This document shows positions 8,166 through 33,846 of a stretch of DNA of 37,505 nucleotides, piece after piece. The notes below the pieces were generated by a model. It had not been told where the DNA came from. It did not search any database and worked only from the letters and a program-made list of their open reading frames with translations. This DNA comes from a virus, in IMG/VR virus record IMGVR_UViG_3300007504_000030, positions 1 through 37,505 of that record; one strand, 5' to 3'. A program made the position numbers and the translations under genes. Numbering within the stretch: the stretch's first letter is position 1; each line of letters opens with the position of its first letter.

Positions 8166-8175
8166 GGAGGATGAT

Positions 8176-18764: not shown

Positions 18765-18803
18765 TATCTAAAATCGTTTGAAGTTCTTTCTGCGACCAAT
18801 AGT

Positions 18804-19427
18804 CTATTTTTTGAATTTAATTTGACCTTTCTTCACCATCTCACGATACTTTTTACCGTCAGTTTTGCGAAGATTCTCAACATCCTCAACAGACATACCA
18901 GATGTTTGAGGAGCTTTATTACCACCTGTGACTTTCTCTAAACCTTTACGTTTAGTCTCTAATAGACCTTTGTCTACTAGGAAAGCTTTAGCGGCCGTTT
19001 CAAGCTTCATACCCTTATTTTCTGGATCCTCACGATACTTATCAAAATCGTCCCATGATTCTTCCAGTTGAGGGTATTTCTTAACCAACTTACTTTGTCC
19101 TAGCTCTGATTCAACATCAGAAAGTCTAGTTTTCAGTCCGCTAACCTCTTCATCTTCATTTTCAGAAGAACTTTCGTTACCTTGTAATTCTTCACGAAGA
19201 GTTTTATTCTCCGTTTCCGCTTTCTTAGCTCTCTCAAAATTTTGAGAACTAACATCAGCGTTCTTTTTGAGTTCATCAAGTTCAGCTTTTGAAATCTCCA
19301 CCTTTTCAGGTGTTTCTTCAACAACTATCTCCTCTTTGTTCTCAACGACAACTTCAGATTTCTCTTCAGTTGACTCTTCGTCAGGGTTTTTTTGAGCTTC
19401 CTGTTGCTCTTCAATGTTTTTTGCCAT
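18804..19427 (-). CDS. scaffolding protein
   Basis: The 207-aa product is acidic and helical. The N-terminal half is Glu-rich (EESTEEKSEVVVENKEEIVV), a coiled-coil middle runs near residues 45-115 (ELDELKKNADVSSQNFERAKK) and the short C-terminus is basic (KYREMVKKGQIKFKK). An acidic coiled coil with a basic helical tail that binds the coat, encoded immediately before the coat gene, is the hallmark of a P22-type internal scaffold. It would be expelled before packaging. Confidence 0.8.
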   Translation of the reverse strand: MAKNIEEQQEAQKNPDEESTEEKSEVVVENKEEIVVEETPEKVEISKAELDELKKNADVSSQNFERAKKAETENKTLREELQGNESSSENEDEEVSGLKTRLSDVESELGQSKLVKKYPQLEESWDDFDKYREDPENKGMKLETAAKAFLVDKGLLETKRKGLEKVTGGNKAPQTSGMSVEDVENLRKTDGKKYREMVKKGQIKFKK

Positions 19428-19484
19428 TTTATGAGATGGTTACTCTAATAAAGTACGTGTGTAGGATGCACGCCCCCCGTAAGT

Positions 19485-19661
19485 TTACTTACTTTTAGCC
19501 CCATTTATTGGACTACCGAAAACATCATCAGATCCAGCGTTTGGTTCATGACCAACTTGTGTATCTGTGACTTTTCTTTCAGCTACTTTGTTTGGTTTTA
19601 GATTACCTGCAAAGTTAGCTCCTTTTATCTTGAAATCTTTTGATGTGTTTCCAAATGACAT
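19485..19661 (-). CDS. hypothetical 58-aa protein before the scaffold gene
   Basis: The frame runs from ATG 19661 to TAA 19485-19487. The polar product (MSFGNTSKDFKIKGANF, ending FGSPINGAKSK) has no cysteines, no membrane segment and a Gly/Asn-rich character; it may be a small virion or assembly protein. It is the first gene after the promoter-terminator unit at 19682-19774, so any RNA polymerase reading through that terminator translates it first. Confidence 0.6.
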   Translation of the reverse strand: MSFGNTSKDFKIKGANFAGNLKPNKVAERKVTDTQVGHEPNAGSDDVFGSPINGAKSK

Positions 19662-19681
19662 GATTTTATATTGTTAATTAA

Positions 19682-19717
19682 TAAAAAGACGAGAACTCTT
19701 TACAGAATTCCCGCCTT
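19682..19717 (-). terminator. strong intrinsic terminator just downstream of a promoter
   Basis: On the minus strand a 14-bp stem (19704-19717 with 19686-19699, three G-U wobbles) is capped by GTAA, a GNRA tetraloop, and followed by TTTTTATT. It starts about 22 nt after the predicted transcription start of the promoter at 19746-19774. It is related in sequence to the one at 25984-26019. Confidence 0.85.
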
Positions 19718-19745
19718 TGTTTGGTTAGGGTATTTAATTATTTTC

Positions 19746-19774
19746 AGTGTAGTCTATTTCAGTAAATTTGTCAA
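19746..19774 (-). promoter_or_regulatory. leftward late promoter (TTGACA-17-TACACT)
   Basis: Perfect -35 TTGACA at 19769-19774, 17-base spacer, -10 TACACT at 19746-19751. It lies in the last codons of the upstream gene and serves the scaffold-coat unit. The segment after it, containing ACCCTAACC, is shared with the portal promoter. Confidence 0.75.
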
Positions 19775-20071
19775 GTATTCTATCAAACTTTCTCTTTCAG
19801 TCTGCGGTGCATTGATTACACCTCGTATTTTCTTATATATTGCGTGTTGTAATGTCAGTTTGGCTGTCTTATCATTAGACATATCTACATCACCAAATTG
19901 TGTCTCTATTGCTCCAATAGCTCCGTCACAGAACTCAGTTATATCCTTTATAGTAAGTTCTTCCTTATTCAATACTTTCTGCCAATTATCAAACTCAACT
20001 CTCTCATCTTCGGTAAGTTCTGTAACGTCTTTTATCCCTCTTTTTTTAAGTAATTTTGATAGTATATTCAT
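19754..20071 (-). CDS. hypothetical helical protein (105 aa)
   Basis: Starting at ATG 20071 (an upstream TTG is less likely), the product is acidic-basic mixed helix: KLLKKRGIKDVTELTEDERVE, then DNWQKVLNKEELTIKD and ERESLIEYLTNLL. The central helices with DITEFCDGAIGAIE recall small proteins encoded after fibre genes that assist assembly, but no motif confirms this. The start is two bases past the fibre gene stop, so it is coupled. Its last codons contain the -35 region of the scaffold-coat promoter. Confidence 0.68.
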   Translation of the reverse strand: MNILSKLLKKRGIKDVTELTEDERVEFDNWQKVLNKEELTIKDITEFCDGAIGAIETQFGDVDMSNDKTAKLTLQHAIYKKIRGVINAPQTERESLIEYLTNLLK

Positions 20072-20073
20072 AA

Positions 20074-21177
20074 TTATCCACAATTAAGAGTTAGTAAATT
20101 AGGTGTCGGAGTTACTGCTACTTCACCGTGAGTTACAGTTAATTTAGGTTCTTGTGTACCATTATCAGCCGCTTTCCATCTTACAAGTATATATTGTCCG
20201 CTTCCTAACCCAGGGTCGCTATCTAAATAGTCATGTCCTTCCCACTGTCCAAGACGTGTTCTTCCTCCCGTGCCTTTTCCGATAAATCCTATACCTGTAG
20301 CATTAAACGGAAAAGGTGTATATGTACCAGTTGAAATACCTGATATATCTTCTCTATCACCACTATCAATCGCTTCCGTTGCACCTGCTTGGTCAAAATC
20401 ACCAGTCGCAAGAGTGTTATCATTTGCAGGACTTGACTGTGTTATTGTCACGAAATCGTTACCGTCATTTGCAAAACTAGAATCAGCACTTGAAAAATCT
20501 AAACTAAGAGTAGCCGCACTAATTGTTTCTCCTGAACCTATTGCTGATGTATCAAAGAGAATAAAACCTCTTACAATAAGAATATTACTACCAATCATTT
20601 CAATCTCACCTCTTTCTACTGTACTACCAGTACTAGTTCCAGTTCCACTTGCCGCATCATGAACAGTTGACCAAGTTGAAGAACCAGGATTATTTAAAAC
20701 TCTTCCATCAACAGGGTCATTTGCTCCTGTGGCAGGATAAAAATCAGTTATGGTATTTCCTATCTTACCTTTTTTAATTTTAGTATTTTCTTTTCCTACC
20801 AAAGTTACAGTGTGTGCAATAGAATCACGAGTAGCTTCTGCTAAATCTTCTTTTAGATTATCTACTACTGTTTCTCTACCTCTTTCATCTGTTTCAATTC
20901 TTGTAGTACCATCTAGCACTTGATAAAGTGGATTAATAATTCTAAATCTTTCTATCTCAACACTCCCATCTTCTCCAAAACCTAATTGTTTATTGCCTTT
21001 CCAAGCTTTTGCAAGAACTTGTACACCACCTTTAATAGCTTCTATGCTTTGAATATCAATTTTTATTCCGTACTTTTGACTGATGTATTCTCCACGAAAA
21101 TCTATCTTAGCAATTTCTCGCCCTTTAATATTAGCTATTTCTTTAGCATCTTTGTTTTTTAATAGATTTTTAATCAT
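20074..21177 (-). CDS. virion protein with carbohydrate-binding-like beta domain
   Basis: The 367-aa protein has a charged N-terminal region (1-120). A beta-rich part follows at about 140-350 with the line ILIVRGFILFDTSAIGSGET followed by ISAATLSL, which matches DNRLRE/CBM-like jelly-roll domains that decorate secreted and virion proteins. It ends with EPKLTVTHGEV, the usual last strand of such a domain. Placed among two paralogous fibre-like proteins, it probably forms part of a receptor-binding or decoration structure. Which host glycan it binds is unknown. Confidence 0.6.
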   Translation of the reverse strand: MIKNLLKNKDAKEIANIKGREIAKIDFRGEYISQKYGIKIDIQSIEAIKGGVQVLAKAWKGNKQLGFGEDGSVEIERFRIINPLYQVLDGTTRIETDERGRETVVDNLKEDLAEATRDSIAHTVTLVGKENTKIKKGKIGNTITDFYPATGANDPVDGRVLNNPGSSTWSTVHDAASGTGTSTGSTVERGEIEMIGSNILIVRGFILFDTSAIGSGETISAATLSLDFSSADSSFANDGNDFVTITQSSPANDNTLATGDFDQAGATEAIDSGDREDISGISTGTYTPFPFNATGIGFIGKGTGGRTRLGQWEGHDYLDSDPGLGSGQYILVRWKAADNGTQEPKLTVTHGEVAVTPTPNLLTLNCG

Positions 21178-21179
21178 TG

Positions 21180-22835
21180 TTAGACTTCTTTAGAGAATAG
21201 AGCTGTTACAGCATAGGTAGTGTTTGAATGGTCTGAAGCGTTATTATCTACCTGCCATGTAGCATCTGCGTGGTCTTGTGGAATTGTTGCTCCTCCTAAT
21301 GCTAAACCTGCTGTTGAATCTGCTGGAACTCTCAATGTTCCTTGAACTGTACCTGATGTTGTCTGTGTAATATCAAGTGTAATTGCTACATCTGACTCGT
21401 TAGCCGCCATTAGATACACCAAGTCATGGAATACACCACTAGATCCTGCAAGTAATGTCTTTGGACCCTCACTATCTGCTGTAACATAAGCTGTTTGAAG
21501 CAGATCTCTTACTTGTACTGGTCTTACAACTTGTCGTCCTGTATCGTCATAAGTTGCTGAAACCATGTCACCTGCCCCTACTGCTGTTGGGTTTGCTGTT
21601 CTAGCAATACCACCTACTTTAACTGGATTAGAACCAACATCTGCTGTATCTGAAGGAATTGGACCCTCTACTGCTGTAGAAGTCAAGCCACCTGATACTG
21701 TTACAGATCCGTCTACTGTGATTGAGTTTCCACCATCTTGAATATTTACTGCTGAACCACCTGATGCGTTATCAACAGTTACATTGTGTCCATCTGCGAG
21801 CTGATTTGCTGAAGTTGCTAAACCTATTGAATTAGCTGTAACATCTACATCTTGTGTCCCACTTGGTGTGGATGTAACTGTACCTGTAACTGGTACAGGG
21901 TTTGAACCTGAATATTGAACACCTGTTGAATCCACTAGTGACGCCGCTATTGAATTTGTCACACCTGTAACCGTTGTGACTGTTGTGACTGTATCAATCG
22001 TTCCTGAATTAACTACTGTTGATAACTCTGTACCACTAACTTGATTAATATCTAAGTGTGCGGCCCTAAGTTCTGCATCTGTTAATCCTGAACCACCTGT
22101 TTCTACAGACACTCTCATTCGGTTATCTGCATTAAATACACTATCCACAGCCGTTGAACCAAATGCATCATATACATTTACAGAAGCAACTGAATCTGTT
22201 GCTTGTGTAACTCTCAATGTATCCGAGTTTACAACACCTGTGTCAGTTTCTGCTATAAGTGTTGCAGAGAGATTACCTGTAATCTTCAAAGCTCCCTCTA
22301 CTTGATCTATAAGTGAAGATGCTGATGCTCTAATATCGCTAATCTTAACGATTTTAGAACCACCTGCACTTCCACCACCACTGATAGAAGTTATATTTTC
22401 TATTAAATTGACTGGATTTCCGTCTTTATCTCTAATCTGAACAGGTAACGGATTACCCAAATCTATACCCATGAGACTCACGAAACCTCTCACATTCATT
22501 TCATCGGGCATGATAACATCAGGCACTCTGATAGGTGGGACTGTTACGTGTGCCCTTGGTTCAGGCACTTTAATCTCTGGTATCTTTATTTCGGGAACTG
22601 TCACATGTGACGGTGCCCCCTCTACTGTGATTTGTGATAAAGCACTAAGTAGCTCTGTTTTATCTACATGTGCTGTCTCACGAATCTCTTTCAAGAATGG
22701 CTTAAACATTCTTGCCACTTCTGCGGCGACAGAAGATACAATATTTGAGCGGTCTCGCTTAAATTCATTGTTTATCATCTTCCCTCGTGCATTGTTGATA
22801 GCATTTTTTGCTATGTTTAAATCTTCGTTTGCCAT
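21180..22835 (-). CDS. fibre-like virion protein with VP-E/K repeat stalk
   Basis: In the 551-aa product residues 1-65 form a helical anchor, residues 70-112 a repeat of alternating Val/Ile with Pro (VTVPEIKIPEIKVPEPR), then MPDEM and a long Ser/Thr/Val-rich beta region with SGG and TV repeats. It shares the anchor, repeat and VIMPDEMNV boundary with the protein at 22875, so the two arose by duplication. The plan, anchor then beta-prism-like stalk then variable head, suggests a trimeric fibre or capsid decoration. No enzymatic pocket is visible. It starts after a short non-coding gap. Confidence 0.62.
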   Translation of the reverse strand: MANEDLNIAKNAINNARGKMINNEFKRDRSNIVSSVAAEVARMFKPFLKEIRETAHVDKTELLSALSQITVEGAPSHVTVPEIKIPEIKVPEPRAHVTVPPIRVPDVIMPDEMNVRGFVSLMGIDLGNPLPVQIRDKDGNPVNLIENITSISGGGSAGGSKIVKISDIRASASSLIDQVEGALKITGNLSATLIAETDTGVVNSDTLRVTQATDSVASVNVYDAFGSTAVDSVFNADNRMRVSVETGGSGLTDAELRAAHLDINQVSGTELSTVVNSGTIDTVTTVTTVTGVTNSIAASLVDSTGVQYSGSNPVPVTGTVTSTPSGTQDVDVTANSIGLATSANQLADGHNVTVDNASGGSAVNIQDGGNSITVDGSVTVSGGLTSTAVEGPIPSDTADVGSNPVKVGGIARTANPTAVGAGDMVSATYDDTGRQVVRPVQVRDLLQTAYVTADSEGPKTLLAGSSGVFHDLVYLMAANESDVAITLDITQTTSGTVQGTLRVPADSTAGLALGGATIPQDHADATWQVDNNASDHSNTTYAVTALFSKEV

Positions 22836-22874
22836 ATTACTTTTCTTATAATTAATTAATAATATCTAATAAAC

Positions 22875-24215
22875 TTAATCATCTACTAATACAAGGTCAA
22901 AACCTGCTGAAACATCTAAATTATTTGCAGAACCATTTGCTTGCATCTTTAAGATACCTGGTCCTTCAAATTTCTTATAAGGATTAAACTGATGACCTTT
23001 CCCATCACTTGTTCCAGATGTGATTTTACCAATCGTGTGTTTAATCACAAATCCAAGTAATTCTGCATCTGGTTCGGGATTATAGAGTAACGACCCATCT
23101 ATTGCCCCTGTAGCACCACCTGATTTATTAACAGAGTCATATAACTGTGTCATATAAGCAGATTGATTACTTGGTATTCCGTAAATAGCCATCTGTGTTT
23201 GACCTTGCTCTTCTTGTATTTGTGCTGTAACCGTATTGTCTGTTTCTGCTGTTGCGGTTATAGTTCCTACGTTTGGACCAGAAGCACCTTTTGTCAAAAC
23301 TTTCATTCTATGAATAATTACATACTGATTTTCTGTTGTTACTGTTGAAACAGTACCACCCATTACTATAGTTTCACTTATTTCTTTAGTATTCCAATCT
23401 TTTAATCCATAAACTTGAATAGTGCGAGCCCCTGTTCCACCAGAAGTATCGTTTACAGACCGAGAATGAATTATGTGTGTTCTCGCTTGTGTTGGTGCAA
23501 CCCATATAGGTTGAGAATCTGTTGAATTAGCCCCATCCCATATATCAGTATCAACACCATTATCTACATCTGTTGAGCGACCAAACTTATTAACACAAGA
23601 TACTTTTGTTACATTACCTCTTGCCGCTTCTAGTGCAAAATCTTGTGCTTCTTTATCTACAATCGCTTGTAAAGAGGAACGATTACTTCCACCACTTGTA
23701 CTATTTCCACCTAAACTCGCAGAATCACCTTTAGCATCAACAAGATGTACAGGTAGTGGTTTATCACCGCCTGTTACTTTCATCTCGTCAGGCATCACAA
23801 CTTCAGGTACTTCAACAATGGGTGCATCTGCTTTTTCTACATTCACAGTCACCTCTGGTTTAGGAACTGTGATTTTAGGTACTTTCACTTCAGGTACTTT
23901 AATTTCTGGTATATCTACCGTAACCTTAGCTTCAGGTACCTTTATTTGCGGTATTTTGACTTCTGGTACGTTTATTTCAGGTATTTTGATGTCTGATACC
24001 GTAACGTTTACTTCGGGTGGTTTAACGTCAACTTTCGGAACGGGAAGCTTTAATGAGCTAAGTGCATTTTTAAAGCCACTCACTATCGTCTCTGCAACAC
24101 CATCAAGCATGAAAGATAGTAAACCAGTCTTAATCTGGTCTTTCTCATCCATTTTCTTGTCACGAACCTTTTGCTTTAATTCGTTATTTATTCTGTTAAG
24201 GAACTCGTTTGCCAT
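22875..24215 (-). CDS. fibre-like virion protein with longer repeat stalk
   Basis: In this 446-aa protein residues 58-143 form a five-residue periodic stalk of the form Ile/Val-x-Val-Pro-Glu/Lys (VPEVKIPQIKVPEAK and others). The helical anchor comes first and the VVMPDEMKV boundary closes the stalk, as in its paralogue at 21180-22835. The following domain (about 165-446) is beta-rich with ARTIQVYGL, KVLTKGASGPNVGTITATAE and a closing LKMQANGSANNLDVSAGF, typical of receptor-facing virion heads. It starts one base past the portal stop. Receptor and exact virion position are unknown. Confidence 0.62.
   Translation of the reverse strand: MANEFLNRINNELKQKVRDKKMDEKDQIKTGLLSFMLDGVAETIVSGFKNALSSLKLPVPKVDVKPPEVNVTVSDIKIPEINVPEVKIPQIKVPEAKVTVDIPEIKVPEVKVPKITVPKPEVTVNVEKADAPIVEVPEVVMPDEMKVTGGDKPLPVHLVDAKGDSASLGGNSTSGGSNRSSLQAIVDKEAQDFALEAARGNVTKVSCVNKFGRSTDVDNGVDTDIWDGANSTDSQPIWVAPTQARTHIIHSRSVNDTSGGTGARTIQVYGLKDWNTKEISETIVMGGTVSTVTTENQYVIIHRMKVLTKGASGPNVGTITATAETDNTVTAQIQEEQGQTQMAIYGIPSNQSAYMTQLYDSVNKSGGATGAIDGSLLYNPEPDAELLGFVIKHTIGKITSGTSDGKGHQFNPYKKFEGPGILKMQANGSANNLDVSAGFDLVLVDD
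23787..24044 (-). repeat. degenerate tandem repeat coding a V-P-E/K stalk
   Basis: The DNA shows repeated ggtac-ttcacttc-like units of about 15 bases coding five-residue beta steps (IKVPE, VKVPK, ITVPK). Degeneracy at the third base shows the repeat is kept at protein level. Unit number differs from the paralogue, so slippage or unequal exchange can change stalk length. Confidence 0.6.
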
Positions 24216-24216
24216 A

Positions 24217-25980
24217 TCATGCCGCTAATTCGGTTAAACTATTCTGTATCTCACTAACAACACCTGTATCATCTGGCTGTTGCTGTGGACCTTCCCCTTG
24301 AGGTCCTAATATCTGTTGAACTGGCTGTCCTGTCTCTGCTTCCTCTACTTGTTTCAACTCTTCAGGTGACAAGTCTAAGACATCAAGCATACGTTTCTGT
24401 GCTATTTCTTTAAGTGCTTTATTGTCTGGGAACTGCTGAACAATAAAGGTGAACTTCTGAATCGTCTTAAATGATTCTTGTTCTTGCTCTGAAGATGAAA
24501 TTATTTGTGGCTCATATCCGTCTTTACTCTCCCAATCTGAAGCATATATCTTTTTAGAATATAACTTACCACTTCTACCTACTTTGTATAAAGTAAGCAC
24601 TTTTGGCTTATTAGCGTGCATTAACTTACCCCATTTCCACGCTACTTCATACCATGCCATTCTGTAGAACTTAGCCATTCCTACAGTTCTTTCTACTGAT
24701 TTTCCTACAAGTATCTCAATCTCTCCTAGTGTTTGACTACCAGATTCCCCCTCCCCTTTCTCTATTGCTGTTGCACCTGTACCTCTTTCTACAATATTTG
24801 TAAGAGCTTGAATTGCAGGCATTGTGTCATCAAGACCAGATACTTCTACTGGCTTTATAACTTTATTGATATCTTCTCCTGGTGGAGCAGGAAGCATAAC
24901 ACCAGGTCCAGGTGTGTAAGTTTGAGGTGTATAGTTCTGATTTGGTAGAAACCAGTGCATTTGAAAGTTCTTCAGAGTTCTATTCTCTACAAGCTGACTA
25001 AACCACACATTCATCACTTTATTAGGTGTTCTAACAAGATCAGCTACAGAATCAGCATAAATATCGTTAGTCTCTGGATCTTCAGCCCATACTACGAAAG
25101 GCCAGAAATCAACACCTATTAAGTCAACAAGTAAGTCATCAGAGAGTAATACATGATCGTCAGCATAGACCATTACATGTCGCTCCCATTCTTTTTTTTC
25201 TTCATTCCATATATTTGTGTAGTGTTCTGACAGATTAACAATCACATCACCTGAAGCAAATAGTTCTTCGTCAGTGTTTGTCATAGCTCTATGACTCTCA
25301 CCTGTTGCTTCTGTAGTTCCCATATCTCGCCATCTTGCTTGTCTTTCTCTCCATAAGATACGATTTTCATTGCTATTTACCATACCTGCTTCGGTAAGAG
25401 CCCATCTCTTTAGCTCATCTTTTCCCTCTTTTGTGTATCTATCGTCTACTAATATCTCTTCAATTCGTCTGAAGATGTTCTGATGAATCATAAATCTAGC
25501 AGTCTCAATATCGTTAGTATTCATCAATGGATCATAAACAATGTCATAAACATCCATGGTGTCTATATCAACACCATTCTCACCTATATTAAGCTTCTTA
25601 GTGCTTATTCCATAAAGTAAAACGTTCTTCTTGTCAAGTACATCTGTCAATTCAAGCTTATTCTCTCTAAAGTTAGCGTCCCACATCTCTTGATATAAGA
25701 TCTCTTTATTCTCATCACCACCTTGTTCTTTCCACTCTACATTAGGTGCATCATCAATCTTAGACAAAAGAGTCTTAATTGTCTCTTTCATCAATGGGAT
25801 ATTCACAGGTTGACGTTGTGTCAATCTGTTTGTTTTTACTCTATTACGATACAATTCATAGTTTTCGTTCCATTGTCTATGTCGTCTATGTTGTAGATCA
25901 TTAGCAGATGATTTCTCATCTCTAAGTTTCTGCATCATATCGTTTTCTTCTGTTGTTTCTTGTGGTGTAGGATTAGCCAT
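24217..25980 (-). CDS. portal protein (P22-like)
   Basis: The start at ATG 25980 (MANPTPQETTEEN) is chosen because the upstream in-frame codons lie in the terminator hairpin. The 587-aa product has the portal plan. A charged helical start (HRRHRQWNENYELYRNR) comes first, then IPLMKETIKTLLSKIDD and DVYDIVYDPLMNTND near residues 140-155. A wing domain with beta strands follows (VIVNLSEHYTNIWNEEKKEW), and a helical stem and crown with TNIVERGTGATAIEKGEGES. It ends with a Gln-rich barrel tail (QPVQQILGPQGEGPQQQ). It is shorter than P22 gp1 (725 aa). A dedicated promoter lies 70 bases upstream. Confidence 0.85.
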   Translation of the reverse strand: MANPTPQETTEENDMMQKLRDEKSSANDLQHRRHRQWNENYELYRNRVKTNRLTQRQPVNIPLMKETIKTLLSKIDDAPNVEWKEQGGDENKEILYQEMWDANFRENKLELTDVLDKKNVLLYGISTKKLNIGENGVDIDTMDVYDIVYDPLMNTNDIETARFMIHQNIFRRIEEILVDDRYTKEGKDELKRWALTEAGMVNSNENRILWRERQARWRDMGTTEATGESHRAMTNTDEELFASGDVIVNLSEHYTNIWNEEKKEWERHVMVYADDHVLLSDDLLVDLIGVDFWPFVVWAEDPETNDIYADSVADLVRTPNKVMNVWFSQLVENRTLKNFQMHWFLPNQNYTPQTYTPGPGVMLPAPPGEDINKVIKPVEVSGLDDTMPAIQALTNIVERGTGATAIEKGEGESGSQTLGEIEILVGKSVERTVGMAKFYRMAWYEVAWKWGKLMHANKPKVLTLYKVGRSGKLYSKKIYASDWESKDGYEPQIISSSEQEQESFKTIQKFTFIVQQFPDNKALKEIAQKRMLDVLDLSPEELKQVEEAETGQPVQQILGPQGEGPQQQPDDTGVVSEIQNSLTELAA

Positions 25981-25983
25981 ATA

Positions 25984-26019
25984 TATAAATAAAAGGCGAA
26001 GTTCAATGTGAACTCCGCC
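25984..26019 (-). terminator. intrinsic terminator between promoter and portal gene
   Basis: On the minus strand GGCGGAGTTCA pairs with TGAACTTCGCC (26009-26019 with 25995-26005, one G-U wobble) and is followed by TTTTATTT. It begins about 25 nt after the predicted start of the promoter at 26051-26080 and ends four bases before the portal start codon. Confidence 0.85.
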
Positions 26020-26050
26020 CATTTGTTAGGGTTAGGATATTATTAAATTA

Positions 26051-26080
26051 AGTGTACTACACACTAGGTTCTTTTGTCAA
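26051..26080 (-). promoter_or_regulatory. leftward late promoter (TTGACA-18-TACACT)
   Basis: Perfect TTGACA at 26075-26080, 18-base spacer, TACACT at 26051-26056. It lies in the last codons of the acetyltransferase gene, serves the portal unit, and is followed by CCTAACCCTAAC and the terminator, the same composite as at 19682-19774. Confidence 0.75.
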
Positions 26081-26410
26081 GAGCTTTGCTGGATTACCCA
26101 CAACTGTTGTGCATCTTTCTACATCTTTTGTAACAACTGCACCTGCTCCTATGACACAACCCTCTTTTAAAGTAACTCCTGGTAGTATTGTTGTGTTAGC
26201 ACCTATAACAACATTATCCTCTACTACTGTTGACATCCAGTGCTTACCTTTAGATGGTGGATGCTTATCGTTTGCAAAGCAAACATGAGGTCCTATAAAC
26301 ACATTATTCCCTATCAACACCCCATTAGGAATGAATACAAACTCTTGATAGTTCACATTCTCTCCCATTTTCACATCATCTCCTATGTATACAAACTGTC
26401 TCTTTTTCAT
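26057..26410 (-). CDS. hexapeptide-repeat sugar N-acetyltransferase
   Basis: The 117-aa protein is a left-handed beta-helix: isoleucine/valine hexads (VLIGNNVFIGPHV, VVIGANTTILPGV, CVIGAGAVVTKDV) with the catalytic-type His in FANDKHPPSK and the closing VVGNPAKLL. It is closest in plan to WlbB/WbpD-type acetyltransferases that acetylate a UDP-amino-uronic acid. It is separated from the surface-sugar cluster by the terminase genes, but would supply a missing step there. It overlaps the gene at 26407 by four bases. Confidence 0.82.
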   Translation of the reverse strand: MKKRQFVYIGDDVKMGENVNYQEFVFIPNGVLIGNNVFIGPHVCFANDKHPPSKGKHWMSTVVEDNVVIGANTTILPGVTLKEGCVIGAGAVVTKDVERCTTVVGNPAKLLTKEPSV

Positions 26411-26598
26411 TTTCGTCTCCTTCTAAAAGCCCAATAGTCTATTTGTACTCCTTGAAATATACCCTCTGAATCAAAGTGTAGCACAGCTTTGCCATTTTTC
26501 AAGTCTAACGCACCAGATCCGATTAAAGACGCTATGATCTCTTGATATTTGAGTGTATAACTCTCGTCTTTATCTGGTATGTCAACTTCTATTTTCAT
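26407..26598 (-). CDS. hypothetical 63-aa protein
   Basis: The small product starts MKIEVDIPDKDESY and ends with a basic block (YWAFRRRRK); a helix near residues 18-30 (QEIIASLIGSG) links two strand-like parts. It lies four bases into the terminase gene end and four bases into the acetyltransferase start (ATGA junctions), so it is translated in between. It is not recognised; a packaging accessory role is possible from position only. Confidence 0.68.
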   Translation of the reverse strand: MKIEVDIPDKDESYTLKYQEIIASLIGSGALDLKNGKAVLHFDSEGIFQGVQIDYWAFRRRRK

Positions 26599-28073
26599 AT
26601 TCCTAATTCTTCATAATAACCCTCTTGTGGTGCTGATTGTTGCTGTGACACAGTTGAAGTGGTTTCTTCTGCTATCTGTATCTGATAAGCTTCTGCATCA
26701 GCTACATCATCATGAGCTCCTTTAGGAAATCTGACAAGCTCTTCTTCTAAATCACTGCACATTCCCTCAATGTGATAGATAGTTCCTGAACTGTAGTATG
26801 GTATCAAACCTCTTATTCTCAACACTTTAGCTTGCTGTTCATGCTTCAGCACTACAACTGTGAAGAACACATTTCTTTGTCTCATCTCTACTTCAAGATA
26901 CGGCTTTATCACTTGCTCATAAACACCTTGTTCTATACCGACCTTTTCAAATCCATAGTCTTGATAGACTTTGAACATAAAATCAATTAAATCAGGTGCG
27001 TTCAGTCTTAGCTTCCATGCTATCAAGTTCCATTTATTCTCTCTATCAATGAAGTTCAGTACAGCACCTATGTTGTCTGATTTGTCTCTCATAGCAGAAG
27101 CAGGGTCAATCGTTAAGAACTTTCTTGTCTTTAGCTTAGACACTTCTTCAAGAGATCTCTTCTTGAACCATGCTGTCTTAAACTCTTGTGACTCTTCATC
27201 TACTGGATTCTGTTGATAAAGTGCTGACCACTTATATGGACCTAGTGCTTTCTTAGTTCTGTTCAACTGCTCTAGAGAGAACTTATCAGGCCATAGTGGG
27301 CTTCCCTCTTCTCTATTCGCTTCTTGTTTCTCTGCAACTGCTGTGAAGTTTATAAGCTCCCATTTGTCATAGTCAGTATCTCCATTAGCTTGTGATTCTT
27401 TCTCTTGTGCTAAGAGTCTACCTGATAAGTCTGCATCATGCCATCTAGTGTTGATAAGTATTATGGCCGCATTTCCCTCTTGACGAGTGTAGAACGTTGT
27501 AGAGTACCAATTCCATATATTATCTCTTATCACTTCTGACTCTGCTTCTTCATCATTCTTAAAAGGATCATCAATAATACCTATCTTAAATCCTTTACCA
27601 GTAATAGCACCACCTACTCCCACAGCTTCATAACCACCGTCTTTCTGTGTCATCCATGAAGCTTTAGCTTTCGTGTCTTGTCTTAGTCTGGTGTCAAATA
27701 TGTTCTGATATGATGAACTATTTATTATATCTCTTGTTCCTTGACCGAACTTAGTAGATAGATCTTGTGAGTATGTAGAGACAATGATAGGAAACTCTGG
27801 ACTCTTACCTAATACCCAAGCAGGAAACTTCTTTGTAGCTAACTCTGACTTACCATGACGAGGTGGCATAGTAATCATAATACGAGGACTTTCACCATTC
27901 TTTACTCTCTCGTATACACTTTGAAGAAGTTCAGCTATTTGGTCGTGAAACCATTGTGGGTCATAATTTACATCAGTTACTACACAGAAATCACGAAAGT
28001 CATCTCTAGCTACTCTCTCCGCTAGTAAGCTGTTCTCTTCTTCTGTTGTTAATGATTCGTTCAAGTTGTTCAT
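26595..28073 (-). CDS. terL: terminase large subunit
   Basis: This 492-aa protein is the motor ATPase and headful nuclease that drives DNA into the procapsid. Walker A is PPRHGKSE (70-77), Walker B IIDDP (166-170), motif III INTRWHDADLSGRL near 207-220. The C-terminal RNase H-like nuclease has Asp323 in LTIDPASA and the AHDDVADAEAYQ acidic pair near the end. Length is normal for phage large terminases. The reading frame overlaps the small subunit gene by 68 bases, so the two are tightly coupled. Confidence 0.95.
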   Translation of the reverse strand: MNNLNESLTTEEENSLLAERVARDDFRDFCVVTDVNYDPQWFHDQIAELLQSVYERVKNGESPRIMITMPPRHGKSELATKKFPAWVLGKSPEFPIIVSTYSQDLSTKFGQGTRDIINSSSYQNIFDTRLRQDTKAKASWMTQKDGGYEAVGVGGAITGKGFKIGIIDDPFKNDEEAESEVIRDNIWNWYSTTFYTRQEGNAAIILINTRWHDADLSGRLLAQEKESQANGDTDYDKWELINFTAVAEKQEANREEGSPLWPDKFSLEQLNRTKKALGPYKWSALYQQNPVDEESQEFKTAWFKKRSLEEVSKLKTRKFLTIDPASAMRDKSDNIGAVLNFIDRENKWNLIAWKLRLNAPDLIDFMFKVYQDYGFEKVGIEQGVYEQVIKPYLEVEMRQRNVFFTVVVLKHEQQAKVLRIRGLIPYYSSGTIYHIEGMCSDLEEELVRFPKGAHDDVADAEAYQIQIAEETTSTVSQQQSAPQEGYYEELGI

Positions 28074-28374
28074 CTGTTAATTGTATCTTATTAACCACCT
28101 TAGCTTCAATAAGTGGTGACTGATAAGGTTTACCGTCTAACATCTCAACTAAATGTTTCTTATTAGCAGGGTCATTAAGATATGAAGCTAGAAACTCATC
28201 AAAGTCTTCAGGGTTTGCTTTGAACATTTGTTTAATCCTGGTGACAGCAGAAAGAGTTCCTGCTTCCCTACCTTTAGGATTACCAGAAGTTCCTTTAGGC
28301 CACTGATATTTCTTCAAATGCTCTGCAGGATTTCTTCTCTGTTTTGGTTGTTCAATGGGTGTTTCTTCAATCAT
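28006..28374 (-). CDS. terS: terminase small subunit (DNA recognition)
   Basis: In this 122-aa protein the centre carries YQWPKGTSGNPKGREAG (residues 23-39), the signature of the phage family with a DUF5681-type domain usually annotated as small terminase. A helical region around residues 40-90 and a basic end (ERIINNRRREQ) would contact DNA. In P22-like phages the small subunit recognises the packaging site. The 18-base palindrome at 28382-28399 lies right in front of the start codon, and a large structured RNA precedes it. Confidence 0.75.
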   Translation of the reverse strand: MIEETPIEQPKQRRNPAEHLKKYQWPKGTSGNPKGREAGTLSAVTRIKQMFKANPEDFDEFLASYLNDPANKKHLVEMLDGKPYQSPLIEAKVVNKIQLTDEQLERIINNRRREQLTSGESS

Positions 28375-28381
28375 ATCTATA

Positions 28382-28399
28382 AGTTATCACATGATAACT
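28382..28399. promoter_or_regulatory. palindrome just upstream of the small terminase start
   Basis: AGTTATCA-CA-TGATAACT is an 18-base dyad ending eight bases before the start codon. In RNA it gives a six- to eight-pair hairpin next to the initiation site; as DNA it could be an operator or part of a packaging recognition site. No T-run, so not a terminator. Confidence 0.5.
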
Positions 28400-28408
28400 A
28401 ACAATGTC

Positions 28409-28687
28409 TATAGTTCACTAAATCTATAAGGCGTGATGACTACTATTCTTCTTGTTATATGTCCTACGTTTCTATAATCAACCGATTAAGATCAATTATT
28501 TTCTTCGTCTAAAAATATACCCTATCAATGTGTCGCCACACGATCTTATAAGCCAGATATATTCAAGGTAATTAGAATATTGAAAGCTCGCACTCGTACA
28601 ATTATGGGAAGTTCTAAGTTCACTATTGCATAATTGCTCATCTAAGACTCTCGTCTAAACTACACCTTATAGATTTAATGAACTATA
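28409..28687 (-). ncRNA. multi-helix structured RNA upstream of the terminase genes
   Basis: In leftward RNA a 23-bp closing stem (28665-28687 with 28409-28431) has a single irregular position that is U-G on this strand and C-A on the other. Inside are an AGAC/GTCT stem with a GAGA (GNRA) loop (28645-28656), an 8-bp stem (28629-28636 with 28599-28606), a 6-bp stem (28575-28580 with 28559-28564), GTGT/ACAC (28530-28541) and a 10-bp stem with three wobbles (28490-28499 with 28474-28483). It has no reading frame of note and fills a 308-base gene-free gap. A packaging RNA, a pac element or a novel phage RNA are all possible. Confidence 0.6.
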
Positions 28688-29081
28688 CATCTTTTATCTT
28701 ATTAACAGCTTCTTCTTCACTAATAATATTTCCATACATAACACCACTTAAATCTTTAGAGATATGCTTTAACAAACGTCTACGAGCAGGTCTGTTGTAA
28801 TGTTCTAACGCATATCTATACTGATTACGATACGCTTCTAACTCTTGCTCTAATCTAAAGTCTATATCTACAAAATATTTACTCCACCATGCATCTGAAC
28901 CACCTATTTCTTTCTGCTGAACTACATGAGTCTCTTCGTGTGCTAGTAAGTCATCACTTACAGTTGGACCACCATCTGGATTATAAAGCTTACCCTCATA
29001 CGTGAATACTATTCCTGGCTTTAAAGTAAATACTTCTCTAATCTTATCTATGTTGGGTGGATAAGCATTTACTATTTTCAT
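28683..29081 (-). CDS. zincin-like metallopeptidase-fold protein
   Basis: The 132-aa protein has LLAHEETHVVQQKE near residues 45-58, an HExxH motif, and a downstream ELEAYRNQYRYA whose Glu could be the third zinc ligand. This is the gluzincin/DUF4157-like plan also found beside phage head genes. No signal peptide is visible, so it would act in the cytoplasm or in the virion, for example as a maturation protease; the fold could also be non-catalytic. Its stop codon lies inside the closing stem of the RNA element that follows. Confidence 0.7.
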   Translation of the reverse strand: MKIVNAYPPNIDKIREVFTLKPGIVFTYEGKLYNPDGGPTVSDDLLAHEETHVVQQKEIGGSDAWWSKYFVDIDFRLEQELEAYRNQYRYALEHYNRPARRRLLKHISKDLSGVMYGNIISEEEAVNKIKDV

Positions 29082-29085
29082 ACGA

Positions 29086-29541
29086 TTATAAAGTTTTAAT
29101 GTACTTTCTCAACATTCCCTCTAATTCTCTGAATGTAGCAATCTGGTCAACTATTCCTGTGACACCATCACGATATTGCTCATTCGGTGTTGTACCATTT
29201 ATCTCTACATCAAGGGCTTTTATCTGATTCAATAGTCTCTCTGCATCTTTCTCTGCTACTATCTTCTTATCAAGAATATTAGCTTTTTGAGCTTCATCTT
29301 TCTCATTCTTAGCACTCTGTTCTATGGTGTCTATTCTTGACTTCATGTAGTCATACTCTTTACGAACCTCTTCTCTTATCTGTTCTGTCTTATTCACTTT
29401 AAACTCTAAATCCCAACGCATTTTAGTTGTGCCTTTGAGCTTATTCTTATAATGACTTTTCTTGCTGTTTCCACTATTTAAAGCAAAAACACGATATACT
29501 TCAACGATTGTTATGACGATTAGTAATATTGTTATTAACAT
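29086..29541 (-). CDS. membrane-anchored coiled-coil protein
   Basis: Residues 2-20 of the 151-aa product are a hydrophobic anchor (LITILLIVITIVEVYRVFA). A basic linker follows and then a long coiled coil (about 55-110, including IREEVRKEYDYMKSRIDTIEQ split at its turn and DKKIVAEKDAERLL). It ends FRELEGMLRKYIKTL. No family is recognised. An anchored coiled coil next to a surface-glycan cluster could be an assembly, exclusion or chain-length factor, but this is inference from position. Confidence 0.68.
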   Translation of the reverse strand: MLITILLIVITIVEVYRVFALNSGNSKKSHYKNKLKGTTKMRWDLEFKVNKTEQIREEVRKEYDYMKSRIDTIEQSAKNEKDEAQKANILDKKIVAEKDAERLLNQIKALDVEINGTTPNEQYRDGVTGIVDQIATFRELEGMLRKYIKTL

Positions 29542-29544
29542 ATT

Positions 29545-30186
29545 TTAATATTTAGATTTTTGACCAAGAATGAAGTAACCATACGTCTTTTGAGGATTAC
29601 CTCCAGGCCACATCTTTTCGGTCATTTTAATAAATTGCAGGTTATAGAAACCATGCTTTTCTAATAATCGTTTGTAATTATGTGCATGATATCCTGACGT
29701 TATTCTTAGCTTCATTCTAGCATACCATGACTCACTGTGCAACTCACTTATCAACAAATGCTTACGAGTTACACGCTTCATCTCTGCTATCGCTTTATTA
29801 GGATTCTTCACATATATCAAGCACATATCAGATAGCACAACATCAGTTGAATTGTCTGACATCATAATATCCTCTGCTGAACCGACCTTTAAGAAAGCAC
29901 CTTGAAATGTCTCTTGTGCTACCTTAATCGCATCTTCACTCACATCAATACCACCCACCTGTTTTCCCTGATGATTCTTAACTATATTCAGTAAATTAGG
30001 ACCACTAGCACATCCAACTTCTAATAAAGACATCCAAGTAAATCTAGTGAGTAGTGTTGATATAAATGTTCTGTGTGGATGATTCCACGATTGCAGATAG
30101 TCTTTATTCCAATCAATCTTTCTATTGATCCAGTAATCTGTATGTTTTTTGGTACTTTTAAACCAATTAGTTACGTAAGAAATCAT
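29545..30186 (-). CDS. SAM-dependent methyltransferase (Methyltransf_11-like)
   Basis: ATG 30186 is chosen over GTG 30210, giving 213 aa. The SAM motif I is LLEVGCASGPNLL near residues 52-64, motif II GGIDVSEDAIKVAQ near 78-91, then VGSAEDIMMSDNSTDVVLSD and the KRVTRKHLLISE strand. It is the class I fold of small-molecule and sugar methyltransferases. At the tail of the glycan cluster it most likely methylates a sugar or a lipid carrier intermediate. The start overlaps the glycosyltransferase gene by 20 bases. Confidence 0.82.
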   Translation of the reverse strand: MISYVTNWFKSTKKHTDYWINRKIDWNKDYLQSWNHPHRTFISTLLTRFTWMSLLEVGCASGPNLLNIVKNHQGKQVGGIDVSEDAIKVAQETFQGAFLKVGSAEDIMMSDNSTDVVLSDMCLIYVKNPNKAIAEMKRVTRKHLLISELHSESWYARMKLRITSGYHAHNYKRLLEKHGFYNLQFIKMTEKMWPGGNPQKTYGYFILGQKSKY

Positions 30187-31084
30187 ATATTTTAGAATAA
30201 AAACGTTCACCTAATAAATAACGTAGCTTCTTCTGCCAACCATGAGGTAGCTTTCTCATCAACCACTTTCTCCAAGATGTCTTTAACACAAGCGGTGTTG
30301 TGCCTGCTACACCAAATCTGTCTAATAAAACATTATCTTGCACAGCTCCTGTGAATGGATGATTGAAGATTGTTGATATGTTCTCCCCATGAGTCCCTAC
30401 TATAAAACCTCTATCTTCTAGATAAAGTGTTTTTAGATAATCTTTTACATACTCATGTGATTTGTATGGACCTGTGTAGTCTAGATGCTTTAATGGATGA
30501 TGCATACCAAAAGTCTCTTTATCAAACTTAATCGTATAGAATGGTGGTGTTGTTGTAGGATTCCATTCAGCTAGTTTTTTATTAACATAATCCATTACAT
30601 ATCCATGTTTATATCCTATTGCTTGTAATTCAGATCTCTGTTCAAATAAAGCTTGCATCTGCTCTACCATGTCTTTTCTATAACAATCATCTGATGGTTG
30701 TATCGTCATAAGAATAGTTTCAGGGTCTTGCATGACATTAAGCAATTCCCCCATTGAGCCATGAATTGCATCAATCAAACGTTCTCTAGCTATCTCATCA
30801 GAGTATTTATCATCCCAAAAACAAACACCAGAATAAGTGAAGACAACTTTAAAACGTTGTTCTAAATATTTTTTAAACTCTTTAATATCTTCATCATCTT
30901 TATCTTCATATCTCCATGATATCCATAATATAAAGTTCTGATTCGTCTGAACTCTCAAAGATGGGACAACAAACTGCTTAAATATCTTAATTCTATTACG
31001 CAACCAACGTTTACCTCTATGTCCGTTATAGAGTCCTAAACCTGTAAAAGGTGTGTAAAGTAGATGAGCTATTTTATTTGACAT
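30167..31084 (-). CDS. glycosyltransferase, rhamnosyltransferase-like
   Basis: The 305-aa protein has the features of the putative rhamnosyl transferase family. RNRIKIFKQFVVPSLRVQTN comes near residues 29-48, then NFILWISWRYEDKDDED and the nucleotide-sugar site QPSDDCY near 128-134. A basic C-terminal part (WRKWLMRKLPHGWQKK) may contact the membrane. Role: transfer of a deoxy-sugar to the surface glycan or to a carrier. It overlaps the HNH gene by 11 bases and the methyltransferase by 20. Confidence 0.75.
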   Translation of the reverse strand: MSNKIAHLLYTPFTGLGLYNGHRGKRWLRNRIKIFKQFVVPSLRVQTNQNFILWISWRYEDKDDEDIKEFKKYLEQRFKVVFTYSGVCFWDDKYSDEIARERLIDAIHGSMGELLNVMQDPETILMTIQPSDDCYRKDMVEQMQALFEQRSELQAIGYKHGYVMDYVNKKLAEWNPTTTPPFYTIKFDKETFGMHHPLKHLDYTGPYKSHEYVKDYLKTLYLEDRGFIVGTHGENISTIFNHPFTGAVQDNVLLDRFGVAGTTPLVLKTSWRKWLMRKLPHGWQKKLRYLLGERFYSKIYDFLRN

Positions 31085-31532
31085 GTTTCCAGTTTTTTCT
31101 ATTAACTATTAAGTAAATATTTTGTGGCGTAGTTAAAAAACTTCTACCAATATCTGTTAAATTAAATCCTTTCTTGTATGTTTGTCTAATTTCTTTCACA
31201 TCTCTTTCTGTTAATTTAGCAAAATGACTTTTCTCTCCCCTTACTGTAACAAATTGTTCCCTTACTCTTCTGTCTTGTGTATTGTCTAACGCTGTACCAA
31301 GATAAAGATGTTTAGGGTTTACACATGACCTATTATCACATGTATGTAAAACATATTTACCTTTCTCTATCTTTCCATTATAAAATTCATAAGAAAATCT
31401 GTGTGCTTTACCACCCTTCATATTGTTGTGATAGAAAAATCCATATCCATCTTTATCTTTAGATGCTTTCCAATTCCAACAACCATCTTTTATCTTATTC
31501 ACTTTTTTTAGAAATCTTTCTTGGATAGTCAT
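31074..31532 (-). CDS. HNH endonuclease with C-terminal helix-turn-helix (homing-type)
   Basis: The 152-aa protein starts with a zinc-bound segment (CWNWKASKDKDGYG near 18-30) and a HNH_3 core, VLHTCDNRSCVNPKHLYLGT (residues 61-80), with His63, Cys65, Cys70 and His75. It closes with a helix-turn-helix-like tail (LTERDVKEIRQTY, FNLTDIGRSFLTT) that would read a target site. This is the plan of free-standing phage homing endonucleases. It lies between two glycosyltransferase genes and disrupts the biosynthetic order, so it is best seen as a mobile passenger. Confidence 0.88.
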   Translation of the reverse strand: MTIQERFLKKVNKIKDGCWNWKASKDKDGYGFFYHNNMKGGKAHRFSYEFYNGKIEKGKYVLHTCDNRSCVNPKHLYLGTALDNTQDRRVREQFVTVRGEKSHFAKLTERDVKEIRQTYKKGFNLTDIGRSFLTTPQNIYLIVNRKNWKHVK

Positions 31533-31533
31533 G

Positions 31534-32382
31534 TTATTTACTCAGCCAAGGGTATTTATTTATTACATCTAAATAATAATCTCTTTCTGGGTTTGGGTTT
31601 GTCTTACCGACCAATTGGTTAAGTTTAACTATTAGTTCGTCCTTAACTCTAAAGGAGTCTATCCCAGCGTAACCATAACCTCTCCATACGATAGGATACT
31701 GACCCCAGAGGACAGACTTTGCTGTAATTTCTGAGAAACCGTCCATGTGTTCATTGAGTCTGAGTCCACATTGCATGTGCTTAACTTGTTCGTTCATTTC
31801 TTCTTTAGGTATTCTGCCGTGGACGAAGACATTATTGTGTGCGGTTTCCCACTGATCTGAACCATATAAGTGAAAATCTACATCACACTTATCTGCTATC
31901 TCCTCTACAATACCCCAGCCATACTCTATTTCACGACCAGAATTAGCAGATAAATATACTTCAGGTCTTTCTCTGTGAACATATGATATCTCATAGTCAT
32001 CTATGTTTCCCATAAAAGATGGGCATACTTTCGCTTCTATTCCCATATCAAGAAGAGCATTAAACTCTACTTTATTCTCTACCCAGTTGTCACAATTTTC
32101 ATTTATCCATTGAGCAAGTGGCTCTGAATGTATTCTTATATCCCCACTATCTGTTAAATGGTACCCATTCTGAAAATGTGTAATATCAGAACCAGCCCAC
32201 AAAATAGCTTTCTGCCCTTTATGTCGCCAAAGAGTATAGAAATCAGGAAGTCCATAAAGACCGAAGAAAACAGTCGGGCTTCTGTCATTCATATACTCGT
32301 CTGTATTCCACACGTCTTGATGTTCACCCTCTAAAGCACCAAGCGATGGTGCTACTCTACATTGCCATTTTTGATTTTGCAT
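31534..32382 (-). CDS. glycosyltransferase, GT4-like fold
   Basis: In this 282-aa protein the C-terminal half carries MQCGLRLNEHMDGFSEITAKSV in two pieces around residues 200-220, the nucleotide-sugar binding site of GT-B enzymes (acidic pair, then Gly-x-Ser). FHLYGSDQW near 170 and GSDITHFQNGYH near 67 also fit the two Rossmann halves. The domain is compact, near the lower end of family length. It probably adds a sugar from the activated amino sugar made by the genes to its right. It overlaps the glutaminase gene by 26 bases. Confidence 0.75.
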   Translation of the reverse strand: MQNQKWQCRVAPSLGALEGEHQDVWNTDEYMNDRSPTVFFGLYGLPDFYTLWRHKGQKAILWAGSDITHFQNGYHLTDSGDIRIHSEPLAQWINENCDNWVENKVEFNALLDMGIEAKVCPSFMGNIDDYEISYVHRERPEVYLSANSGREIEYGWGIVEEIADKCDVDFHLYGSDQWETAHNNVFVHGRIPKEEMNEQVKHMQCGLRLNEHMDGFSEITAKSVLWGQYPIVWRGYGYAGIDSFRVKDELIVKLNQLVGKTNPNPERDYYLDVINKYPWLSK

Positions 32383-32848
32383 AATTTAAGAAATTAACTA
32401 ATAAAGGATGTGGCTTTTCTTTACTTGACTGATATTCTGGATGACTTTGTGTTATGAAAAAATTCTCTGGTGTATCTTGCTCTAGCTGAAGAACTACGGA
32501 TGAATCAACTTCATACCAATTCCAATAACTCTCTCCGTTTTTTAATCCTACGTTCAATTCAGGTAGCTTCTTAACAACAAACGTTCCCTCTCCAAACTCT
32601 TCACTTGTAGCATCTTTAATACTTAAAACATGTCTTGCAAACTCTATAGCTGTAAGTTGATATCCTGCACATATACCTAAAAACGGTCTTCCACTTTTTC
32701 TTGCTTCAGCTATTCTGTCTATCATAAATTCAGTATTAGACGGGGAGTGGGTTCCACAAATAATAAGACCATCATATCTTCGCCATTTTTTGTCTATCTC
32801 CGAAAGAGCTTTTTCAACAGACGTATTGAAGTTGTTAAGAATTTCCAT
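32357..32848 (-). CDS. class I glutamine amidotransferase, CTP-synthase-like
   Basis: In this 163-aa enzyme the nucleophile elbow GICAGYQLTAIEFARHVL (58-75) has Cys60, with the IEFAR-HVL continuation that is specific to the CTP synthase glutaminase rather than to HisH. The His136 and Glu138 pair is in TQSHPEYQS. It lacks a synthetase domain, so it must supply ammonia to a partner. The partner is almost certainly the sugar amidotransferase encoded directly upstream, whose 3' end it overlaps by 55 bases in another frame. In known clusters (wbpG, pseA) HisH fills this role, so the recruitment seen here is unusual. Confidence 0.85.
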   Translation of the reverse strand: MEILNNFNTSVEKALSEIDKKWRRYDGLIICGTHSPSNTEFMIDRIAEARKSGRPFLGICAGYQLTAIEFARHVLSIKDATSEEFGEGTFVVKKLPELNVGLKNGESYWNWYEVDSSVVLQLEQDTPENFFITQSHPEYQSSKEKPHPLLVNFLNYAKSKMAM

Positions 32849-33846
32849 AATTTTTCATCAGTTTTAAAATTTTTGTACGACCTTTTAGGATATCGCATAA
32901 CCCTTTTTTCTAAACCTATCTCTGGATATACAGGACACTTACCGAGTTCATCTAAAGCTTCATTTCTTGTCATCTGACCACTATTTATCAATGACGATAA
33001 ATGTGCCTTCCTTTTATCAATACTAAACTTTTCAAAGAGATAGTAATTTTGAAACCATTTTGTGAACACAGACTCTCCATGTTTTTCCCCATAATCTTGC
33101 CATCCGTATTTATCTTCTAATATTTTAATAGCTTTAGCTCTATTATACCCTACATAATCAAGCAAATATAATGTCTTTATTTTTTTAATCCATTTATAGT
33201 AATTCCATTTAAGAAGTGAACAGACTGGTAATCCTGTAAGCTTTTTACCTGTCATCTTTCTGTATACATCTTTTATGTGAACTAAATCTCTAGCATTATA
33301 TCCCCAAGATGCAGGCATTATACTTTCTGTTGCTACATTACCACCAGAGAGAATCCATTTAATATTATATTTACTCGCCATTTCTAAAGTAGTAGCCATT
33401 AAAATATGATCTGTCGGAATCTCTATGTTCCTCTGTCCTGCTTGCATAAAAGCACCTTGTAATTCAACAAACTTTTTTGTGTCTATAGTGTAACGATAAA
33501 ATGGTACCTTTAATCCTTCAACTAATCGCATTATATTTTCGTCAGCTTTCGGATCATTCCATCCATTATCTACAGAGAAACAAAGAGGTCTTAATCCAAA
33601 CTCAACAGCTTTATGAAGAGTATACGAAGAATCTACACCACCAGATAATCCAATAAGACAATCGTACTTCTTATTTATTTCATCTTTCTTAATATCTTCA
33701 ATTAAATAATCTGTAAATTGAGATTCCACATTTGCATCAATAATTTCATTCTTAGCTATGTGACAGAAATTACAAACACCATTCTCATCAAAAGTGATTT
33801 CTTCCGCACTCTTATCCATTACACATTTTACGCATTGTGTTTGCAT
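32794..33846 (-). CDS. N-acetyl sugar amidotransferase (WbpG/PseA-like)
   Basis: The 350-aa protein starts CVKCVMDKSA, with Cys5, Cys8, Cys25 and Cys28 making a zinc site. It continues with the PP-loop SGGVDSS (68-74), and has the ATP-dependent amidotransferase body with LSGGNVATESIMPASWGYNA. This family (TIGR03573-type) turns an N-acetyl group of an activated sugar into an acetamidino group using ammonia from a glutaminase. It occurs in pathways for amidinated uronic acids in Pseudomonas and in pseudaminic-acid derivatives in Campylobacter. The basic tail is the reading frame that hosts the start of the glutaminase gene. Confidence 0.88.
   Translation of the reverse strand: MQTQCVKCVMDKSAEEITFDENGVCNFCHIAKNEIIDANVESQFTDYLIEDIKKDEINKKYDCLIGLSGGVDSSYTLHKAVEFGLRPLCFSVDNGWNDPKADENIMRLVEGLKVPFYRYTIDTKKFVELQGAFMQAGQRNIEIPTDHILMATTLEMASKYNIKWILSGGNVATESIMPASWGYNARDLVHIKDVYRKMTGKKLTGLPVCSLLKWNYYKWIKKIKTLYLLDYVGYNRAKAIKILEDKYGWQDYGEKHGESVFTKWFQNYYLFEKFSIDKRKAHLSSLINSGQMTRNEALDELGKCPVYPEIGLEKRVMRYPKRSYKNFKTDEKLWKFLTTSIRLLKKLFRR

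Follow-up and report, generated by a model that had tools for sequence, protein, structure and literature searches.

Two composite leaders in front of the head genes

The short sequence that separates the portal gene of an uncultured phage from the gene upstream of it carries a promoter and a terminator-like hairpin, and it returns in front of the capsid block. This raises the question of whether it acts as a regulated leader of the late operons and, if so, which part of it would be recognised. For the window, that is, the whole 37,505-nt stretch analysed here (IMG/VR record IMGVR_UViG_3300007504_000030), comparison of DNA and of protein with the phage database gave no relative. The first-pass annotation described a promoter-terminator composite present twice in the same order, with the -35 box in the last codons of the upstream gene, and the coordinates of both copies on the minus strand bear this out.

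26080-25984, minus strand: whole composite of copy 1, in front of the portal gene
26075..26080, minus strand: copy 1 -35 box TTGACA, within the final codons of ORF 26057-26410
26051..26056, minus strand: copy 1 -10 box TACACT, 18-nt spacer to the -35 box
26036-26030, minus strand: copy 1 CCTAACC segment
26014..26037, minus strand: copy 1 putative antiterminator hairpin TCC-UAA-CCC-UAACAAAU-GGG-C-GGA, from covariation and unconstrained MFE folds of 30-38 nt prefixes
26037-26035/26016-26014 and 26031-26029/26020-26018, minus strand: outer and inner stems of the copy 1 antiterminator
25994..26020, minus strand: copy 1 terminator-like hairpin II, 12 bp, arms GGGCGGAGTTCA/TGAACTTCGCCT
25984..25993, minus strand: copy 1 U-run TTTTATTTAT, directly 3' of hairpin II
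24217..25980, minus strand: portal gene (SU10_portal, Pfam PF23899), first behind copy 1, ATG at 25980
19774-19685, minus strand: composite of copy 2, in front of the capsid block
19769..19774, minus strand: copy 2 -35 box TTGACA
19746..19751, minus strand: copy 2 -10 box TACACT, 17-nt spacer to the -35 box
19729-19723, minus strand: copy 2 CCTAACC segment
19710..19730, minus strand: copy 2 putative antiterminator hairpin CCC-UAA-CC-AAACAAA-GG-C-GGG, from covariation and prefix folds
19685..19718, minus strand: copy 2 terminator-like hairpin II, 15 bp
19675..19684, minus strand: copy 2 U-rich tail TTATTAATTA, 3' of hairpin II
19491..19661, minus strand: 56-aa ORF, first gene behind copy 2 and head of the capsid block, start at 19661
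18804-19427 and 17442-18764, minus strand: capsid block after the 56-aa ORF, the latter gene encoding the major head protein

The upstream ORFs that hold the -35 boxes in their final codons are 26057-26410 and 19754-20083, and in both cases the -10 box lies just past the stop codon. Copies 1 and 2 are the longest-stem terminator-like sites within 18000-37505, and each has the GC-rich hairpin with an immediate U-run that marks an intrinsic (rho-independent) terminator. The GGG/C/GGA letters of copy 1 are held in common by hairpin II and the small antiterminator hairpin. The portal ATG follows ~14 nt past hairpin II and has no Shine-Dalgarno sequence. This is the rule for nearly all gene starts in the window, which show AAT/ATT ATG contexts; a few (7513, 8176, 8372, 26410) have GGAGG. 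An in-frame ATG at 26022, in hairpin II, would give a 601-aa portal ORF, a start that relatives do not support.

Distribution of the element among relatives

Portal relatives were gathered by two scans of viral contigs (IMG/VR). A covariance model built from 16 copies (R1), whose E-values are rough, detects a strong pair of copies in the window, as it does in most relatives of sufficient length. The usual pattern is one copy before the portal gene and one before the capsid genes, the second lying several kb downstream of the first, around the capsid block. In some relatives the second copy precedes a conserved small KLLxKRGI-type gene, and in others, including the window, it follows this gene. 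The search for further copies, proposed along with the original description, returned 69 matches (68 distinct) among the IMG/VR portal relatives, usually two per genome. Unrelated spacers in near relatives had been named as the outcome that would speak against a regulated system; the opposite was found, the spacer being the most conserved part of the unit in dozens of relatives. In the regions upstream of the relatives' portal genes, the architecture is kept and the flanking letters are different, and the element is retained down to ~50% portal identity. No recognisable element was found in some diverged relatives (L025, L134, L137, L145-L149). Exact pattern scans of viral contigs led essentially to this phage group, plus one GC-rich coding match in L188.

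Two relatives (L087, L088) lie on contigs assigned to metagenome bins, one of an Elusimicrobia MAG (0.1-um filter) and one of an 'archaeon' MAG. These assignments are likely binning artefacts, and still serve as leads to the host. In L031, inspection by eye showed a tRNA-like sequence (~7830-7935) immediately before the portal leader, where a protein gene usually stands.

Most copies have a good TTGAC-16/17-TATAAT pair ending a few to ~20 nt before the element, and the promoter scores of 62% of copies beat 95% of shuffles. With the promoter ending just upstream, transcripts should start at the element itself.

Two mutually exclusive folds

The consensus of the small hairpin consists of YCC, a UAA/C internal loop, an inner stem of 3-4 bp, an AACAA-type loop, C and GGR. 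The GGR letters form the 3' strand of its outer stem and belong to the terminator's 5' arm as well, and therefore the two structures exclude each other. The covariation counts come from alignment A5, which comprises the 69 matches and whose fit was guided by the inner stem and stem II, with the outer stem left out, and they are inflated by kinship among the aligned sequences. With this proviso, the inner stem pair 15-34 is CG in 41 copies, UA in 25 and UG in 2, and is never broken. The outer stem YCC:GGR, absent from the model that produced A5, has a covariation score of 0.313; shuffles give 0.178, and shifting the stem by a single column gives 0.11/0.10. A second alignment, A6, was made with plain MAFFT from 36 copies selected because their lengths are nearly equal. 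In it, 90% of the complete small hairpin is paired and all seven of its pairs show compensatory changes, a result reached by 0 of 500 shuffles. Three alignment columns (6-39-92, n=66) vary in concert as UAU (17), CGC (17), CGU (7), GCG (4) and UGU (2), and at the level of sequence this three-way covariation supports both folds.

Hairpin II is likewise well founded: 87.7% of its stem cells in A5 are paired, with compensatory changes, and GU outnumbers AC (58 versus 8 cells), as RNA on that strand predicts. The GU/AC test does not discriminate for the small hairpin. At least five T among the eight bases after hairpin II occur in 64 of the 69 copies. The pair of structures thus has the composition of an attenuator, in which antiterminator and terminator share a strand, exclude each other and are both supported by covariation. 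As far as comparison of sequences reaches, it establishes the promoter-leader-terminator order, both helices, their mutual exclusion and a co-evolution confined to the small hairpin, which is described below.

When prefixes of the two window leaders are folded at increasing length and without constraints, the small hairpin appears at 30-38 nt and the terminator from 46-48 nt. In copies 1 and 2, the small hairpin has predicted energies of -6.9 and -4.2 kcal/mol, the full terminator fold -17.8 and -19.7 kcal/mol. The terminator is far more stable, so by energy alone it wins, and an antiterminator this weak would, without a factor, merely delay termination.

These folds also recast the CCTAACC segment, which had been put forward as a candidate recognition site. 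Its YCC is a stem strand, its UAA an internal loop, and the inner stem starts with the C(C) that comes next. The idea of a linear protein box was rejected: CCTAACC alone occurs three times in the window with 2.2 expected, which is chance level, and its letters change together with their pairing partners. Two other candidates were discarded. A DNA dyad operator disagrees with the strand-specific, RNA-like behaviour of hairpin II and with the 3/1 asymmetric spacing and freely varying letters of the small hairpin, which taken by itself may, strictly, still be such an operator. Ribosome-coupled attenuation by the upstream gene was rejected because the stop codon of that gene ranges in position from 79 nt ahead of the aligned element to 5 nt inside it, a spread too wide to give the ribosome a constant place.

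Co-evolution of the two copies within a genome

Copies from the same genome resemble each other more than pairs from different genomes do. The small hairpin shows this in its 5' flank, stem and loop; hairpin II does not. In terms of edit distance, with near relatives removed, the effect is strong for the antiterminator (p < 5e-5) and persists when its loops are taken by themselves (p = 5e-5); it is absent from the upper part of hairpin II (p = 0.66), and visible as a weak similarity in the U-tail (p = 0.02). Copying of the whole unit would bring hairpin II along too, so a shared recognising factor fits better. We infer that a common factor recognises both small hairpins of one genome.

A proposed switch and its competitors

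The observations are best accommodated by an antiterminator/terminator switch of the RAT-like kind that gates the late operons, with each copy serving as a gated leader; we put the probability of this reading at roughly 0.62. A sigma-70-type promoter would start an RNA of ~60 nt that has no Shine-Dalgarno sequence, and the first ~30 nt would fold into the small hairpin, YCC-UAA-stem-AACAA-stem-C-GGR, whose single internal loop is asymmetric. In the default state, the terminator, which is the longer of the two, would displace the small hairpin and transcription would stop just upstream of the portal or capsid start codon. A trans factor would bind the internal and apical loops; it would probably be an RNA-binding protein, of the phage or the host, that is produced or active late. 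Its binding would stabilise the small hairpin, shorten the terminator and part it from the U-run, letting the head genes be transcribed. The earlier suggestion of a regulated antitermination-type leader is well supported, with exclusive covarying folds, two co-evolving copies and long retention behind it. The switching itself is inferred, and so are termination in the cell, a trans factor whose bound state means 'on', and late timing.

An unlikely, though the strongest, competitor is a passive attenuator, in which the small hairpin delays the terminator and a fixed read-through tunes head-gene dosage with no trans factor. Both folds do form spontaneously in prefix folding and most copies have the U-run. 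However, pure delay needs no loop sequences that co-vary between same-genome copies in a way hairpin II does not, and copies lacking the U-run keep the small hairpin.

Those copies bear on a second alternative as well. The U-run is missing from copy 1 of L014 and of L022, from both copies of L114 and from L117, and is weak in L016; termination is therefore not universal. In L014 copy 1, L022 copy 1, L114 and L117, the AUG stands in or directly after hairpin II, a placement made by eye for L117 and for the portal copy of L114. Replacement of a terminator by a hairpin that sequesters the start codon is familiar from riboswitches and ribosomal-protein leaders. The element might accordingly be mainly a translational operator, at which an RNA-binding protein or structural product governs whether the AUG is accessible; the U-run would then serve the ribosome as a U-rich site and would not be part of a terminator. 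In most copies the AUG follows hairpin II by ~7-17 nt with no Shine-Dalgarno sequence, and two further copies described below (L078:13947, G001:1805) involve their start codons in complementarity or in the small hairpin itself. As a general explanation this seems to us still less probable than passive attenuation, for in 64 of 69 copies a GC-rich stem runs straight into the T-run, the classic signature of a terminator, and a promoter lies directly upstream in most copies.

Improbable, in our estimate, is a processive antitermination site (boxB/nut- or put-like) joined to a test terminator, from which a loaded polymerase would also ignore later terminators. The short stem with a pentaloop directly downstream of late promoters, before two late operons, does resemble boxB. 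In the nut sites of lambda and P22, boxB is a short pentaloop stem read by the phage N protein to defeat terminators; the P22 boxB loop is GACAA. BoxB works processively, together with Nus factors, and is not known to have a strand in common with a terminator. The small hairpin of this phage group shares its outer strand with the terminator, which makes a local switch for which processivity is unneeded. For the comparison with lambdoid nut sites, the alignment shows the pentaloop hairpin, and in it no conserved boxA-like box separate from the stem was seen. The put RNA of HK022 consists of two hairpins that act directly on RNA polymerase.

That the unit, complete from promoter to terminator, is an autonomous gene for a 60-nt small RNA acting in trans and placed before head genes by chance is scarcely credible, given that it is kept directly before start codons in two operons, that in several variants the U-run is gone and the unit is fused to the AUG, and that there is no hint of a trans target.

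Comparison with known systems

In the RAT systems (BglG/SacY/LicT), a stabilised hairpin overlaps the 5' arm of an intrinsic terminator, shortens it and parts it from its U-run (PMC3369936). The small hairpin of the phage element likewise has an asymmetric internal loop and a 3' strand that overlaps the terminator 5' arm. It differs in having, in the consensus, one 3/1-nt internal loop in place of two asymmetric ones, in its UAA/C and AACAA parts, which do not match the RAT sequence, and in preceding head genes, and several operons per genome, rather than sugar operons; no CAT-domain protein was found in 11 phage records. Membership of the RAT family is not claimed. In the two-hairpin antiterminators of the ANTAR proteins NasR and EutV, the protein-stabilised hairpin also overlaps the terminator stem (PMC3369936). 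The phage element shares this overlap, but is a single hairpin with mostly a 5-nt AACAA-type loop, whereas the ANTAR sites have two hairpins with A1/G4 hexaloops.

The layout of the leader also recalls lambda pR'-qut-tR', where a late promoter is followed at once by a terminator before the head genes and a short terminated leader is made. The Q protein of lambda binds promoter DNA at a single late promoter and no antiterminator hairpin is known to be involved, unlike the leader of this phage group, which contains a putative one and is repeated before two operons. The GP20-a and GP20-b motifs are reportedly conserved phage RNAs upstream of portal genes; judging by that description, proximity to the portal gene is what the element has in common with them.

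No Rfam 15 family reached its gathering threshold in the window, and at E up to 10 only unrelated weak matches fell in the element region. The L20_leader family (E 0.019) was rejected: the match scores 22.6 of the 58.7 bits of its gathering score, and its alignment in L005 is chiefly with the terminator hairpin. Neither L024 nor L030 showed it. The literature searched, mostly open-access papers, yielded no description of such an element.

Late gene expression in phages is known to be controlled by DNA-bound activators, by new sigma factors or polymerases and by processive antiterminators (Q, N, put). If the proposed reading is true, a RAT-like local switch, repeated ahead of the portal and capsid operons and conserved in a wide group of uncultured phages, would add to the known means of timing virion assembly and supply a compact RNA part with a probably specific ligand.

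Candidates for a putative trans factor

The known antiterminator proteins were set aside as the factor, for neither the CAT domain (PF03123, the 11 records mentioned above) nor ANTAR (PF03861, 14 phage records) had a match. A candidate is encoded upstream of the portal leader.

26407..26598, minus strand: gene of a conserved 63-aa basic-tailed protein, usually directly before the portal element in relatives

The protein carries the motif HFDxxGxFxGVxLxYWPWRRRK and was found in ~60 loci. The window copy has no sequence match in Pfam, PHROG or PDB, and marginal Pfam matches occur in single relatives only. AlphaFold predicts, with confidence (pLDDT 88.7), a helix plus a beta-hairpin, a fold too simple to tell RNA binding.

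Additional hairpin copies and the sugar-synthesis cluster

A model confined to the 28 nt of the small hairpin (R2) finds further copies in new genomes, and if the switch is real, such a model locates its targets and makes regulon and ligand directly testable. The extra copies count as leads. L078:13947, a third copy in its genome, has a promoter and the small hairpin and lacks the terminator; its CTCATACC is complementary to the start-codon GGTATGAG. G023:13394 is a third copy with a terminator. A strong small hairpin with the AUG inside it lies before a transketolase-like gene (G001:1805; L067 1805-1832), and weak look-alikes occur at the start of the same gene in two other records (G004:5429, L074 5429-5456; G026, L201). 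No look-alike was found at this gene start in several other records. The window ends within the transketolase region, and a third copy of the element may lie just beyond its edge. In L172 (446-473; G017:37745), a strong promoter stands with a hairpin-I-like sequence that holds the AUG of a short zinc-finger-like ORF.

We consider it possible, if doubtful, that one new phage RNA-binding regulator reads the 28-nt hairpin as a portable operator: an antiterminator before the portal and capsid operons, a means of start-codon sequestration in some copies and, possibly, a site of direct repression that covers the AUG at the head of the sugar-synthesis operon (G001:1805, G004:5429, G026). A single factor would then coordinate the early-to-late switch at the RNA level.

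The sugar/glycan synthesis cluster (29086-37505 in the window) lies beside the head genes and is conserved across the phage group. It comprises a DegT aminotransferase, Polysacc_synt_2, GFO_IDH, GATase, a methyltransferase, a rhamnosyl-transferase-like gene and, at the edge, a piece of the transketolase; the transketolase-like gene is present in 14 of 19 records. The plus-strand genes at 2061-9368, unlike the late block, have almost no relatives in the group's other records, and are probably early genes.
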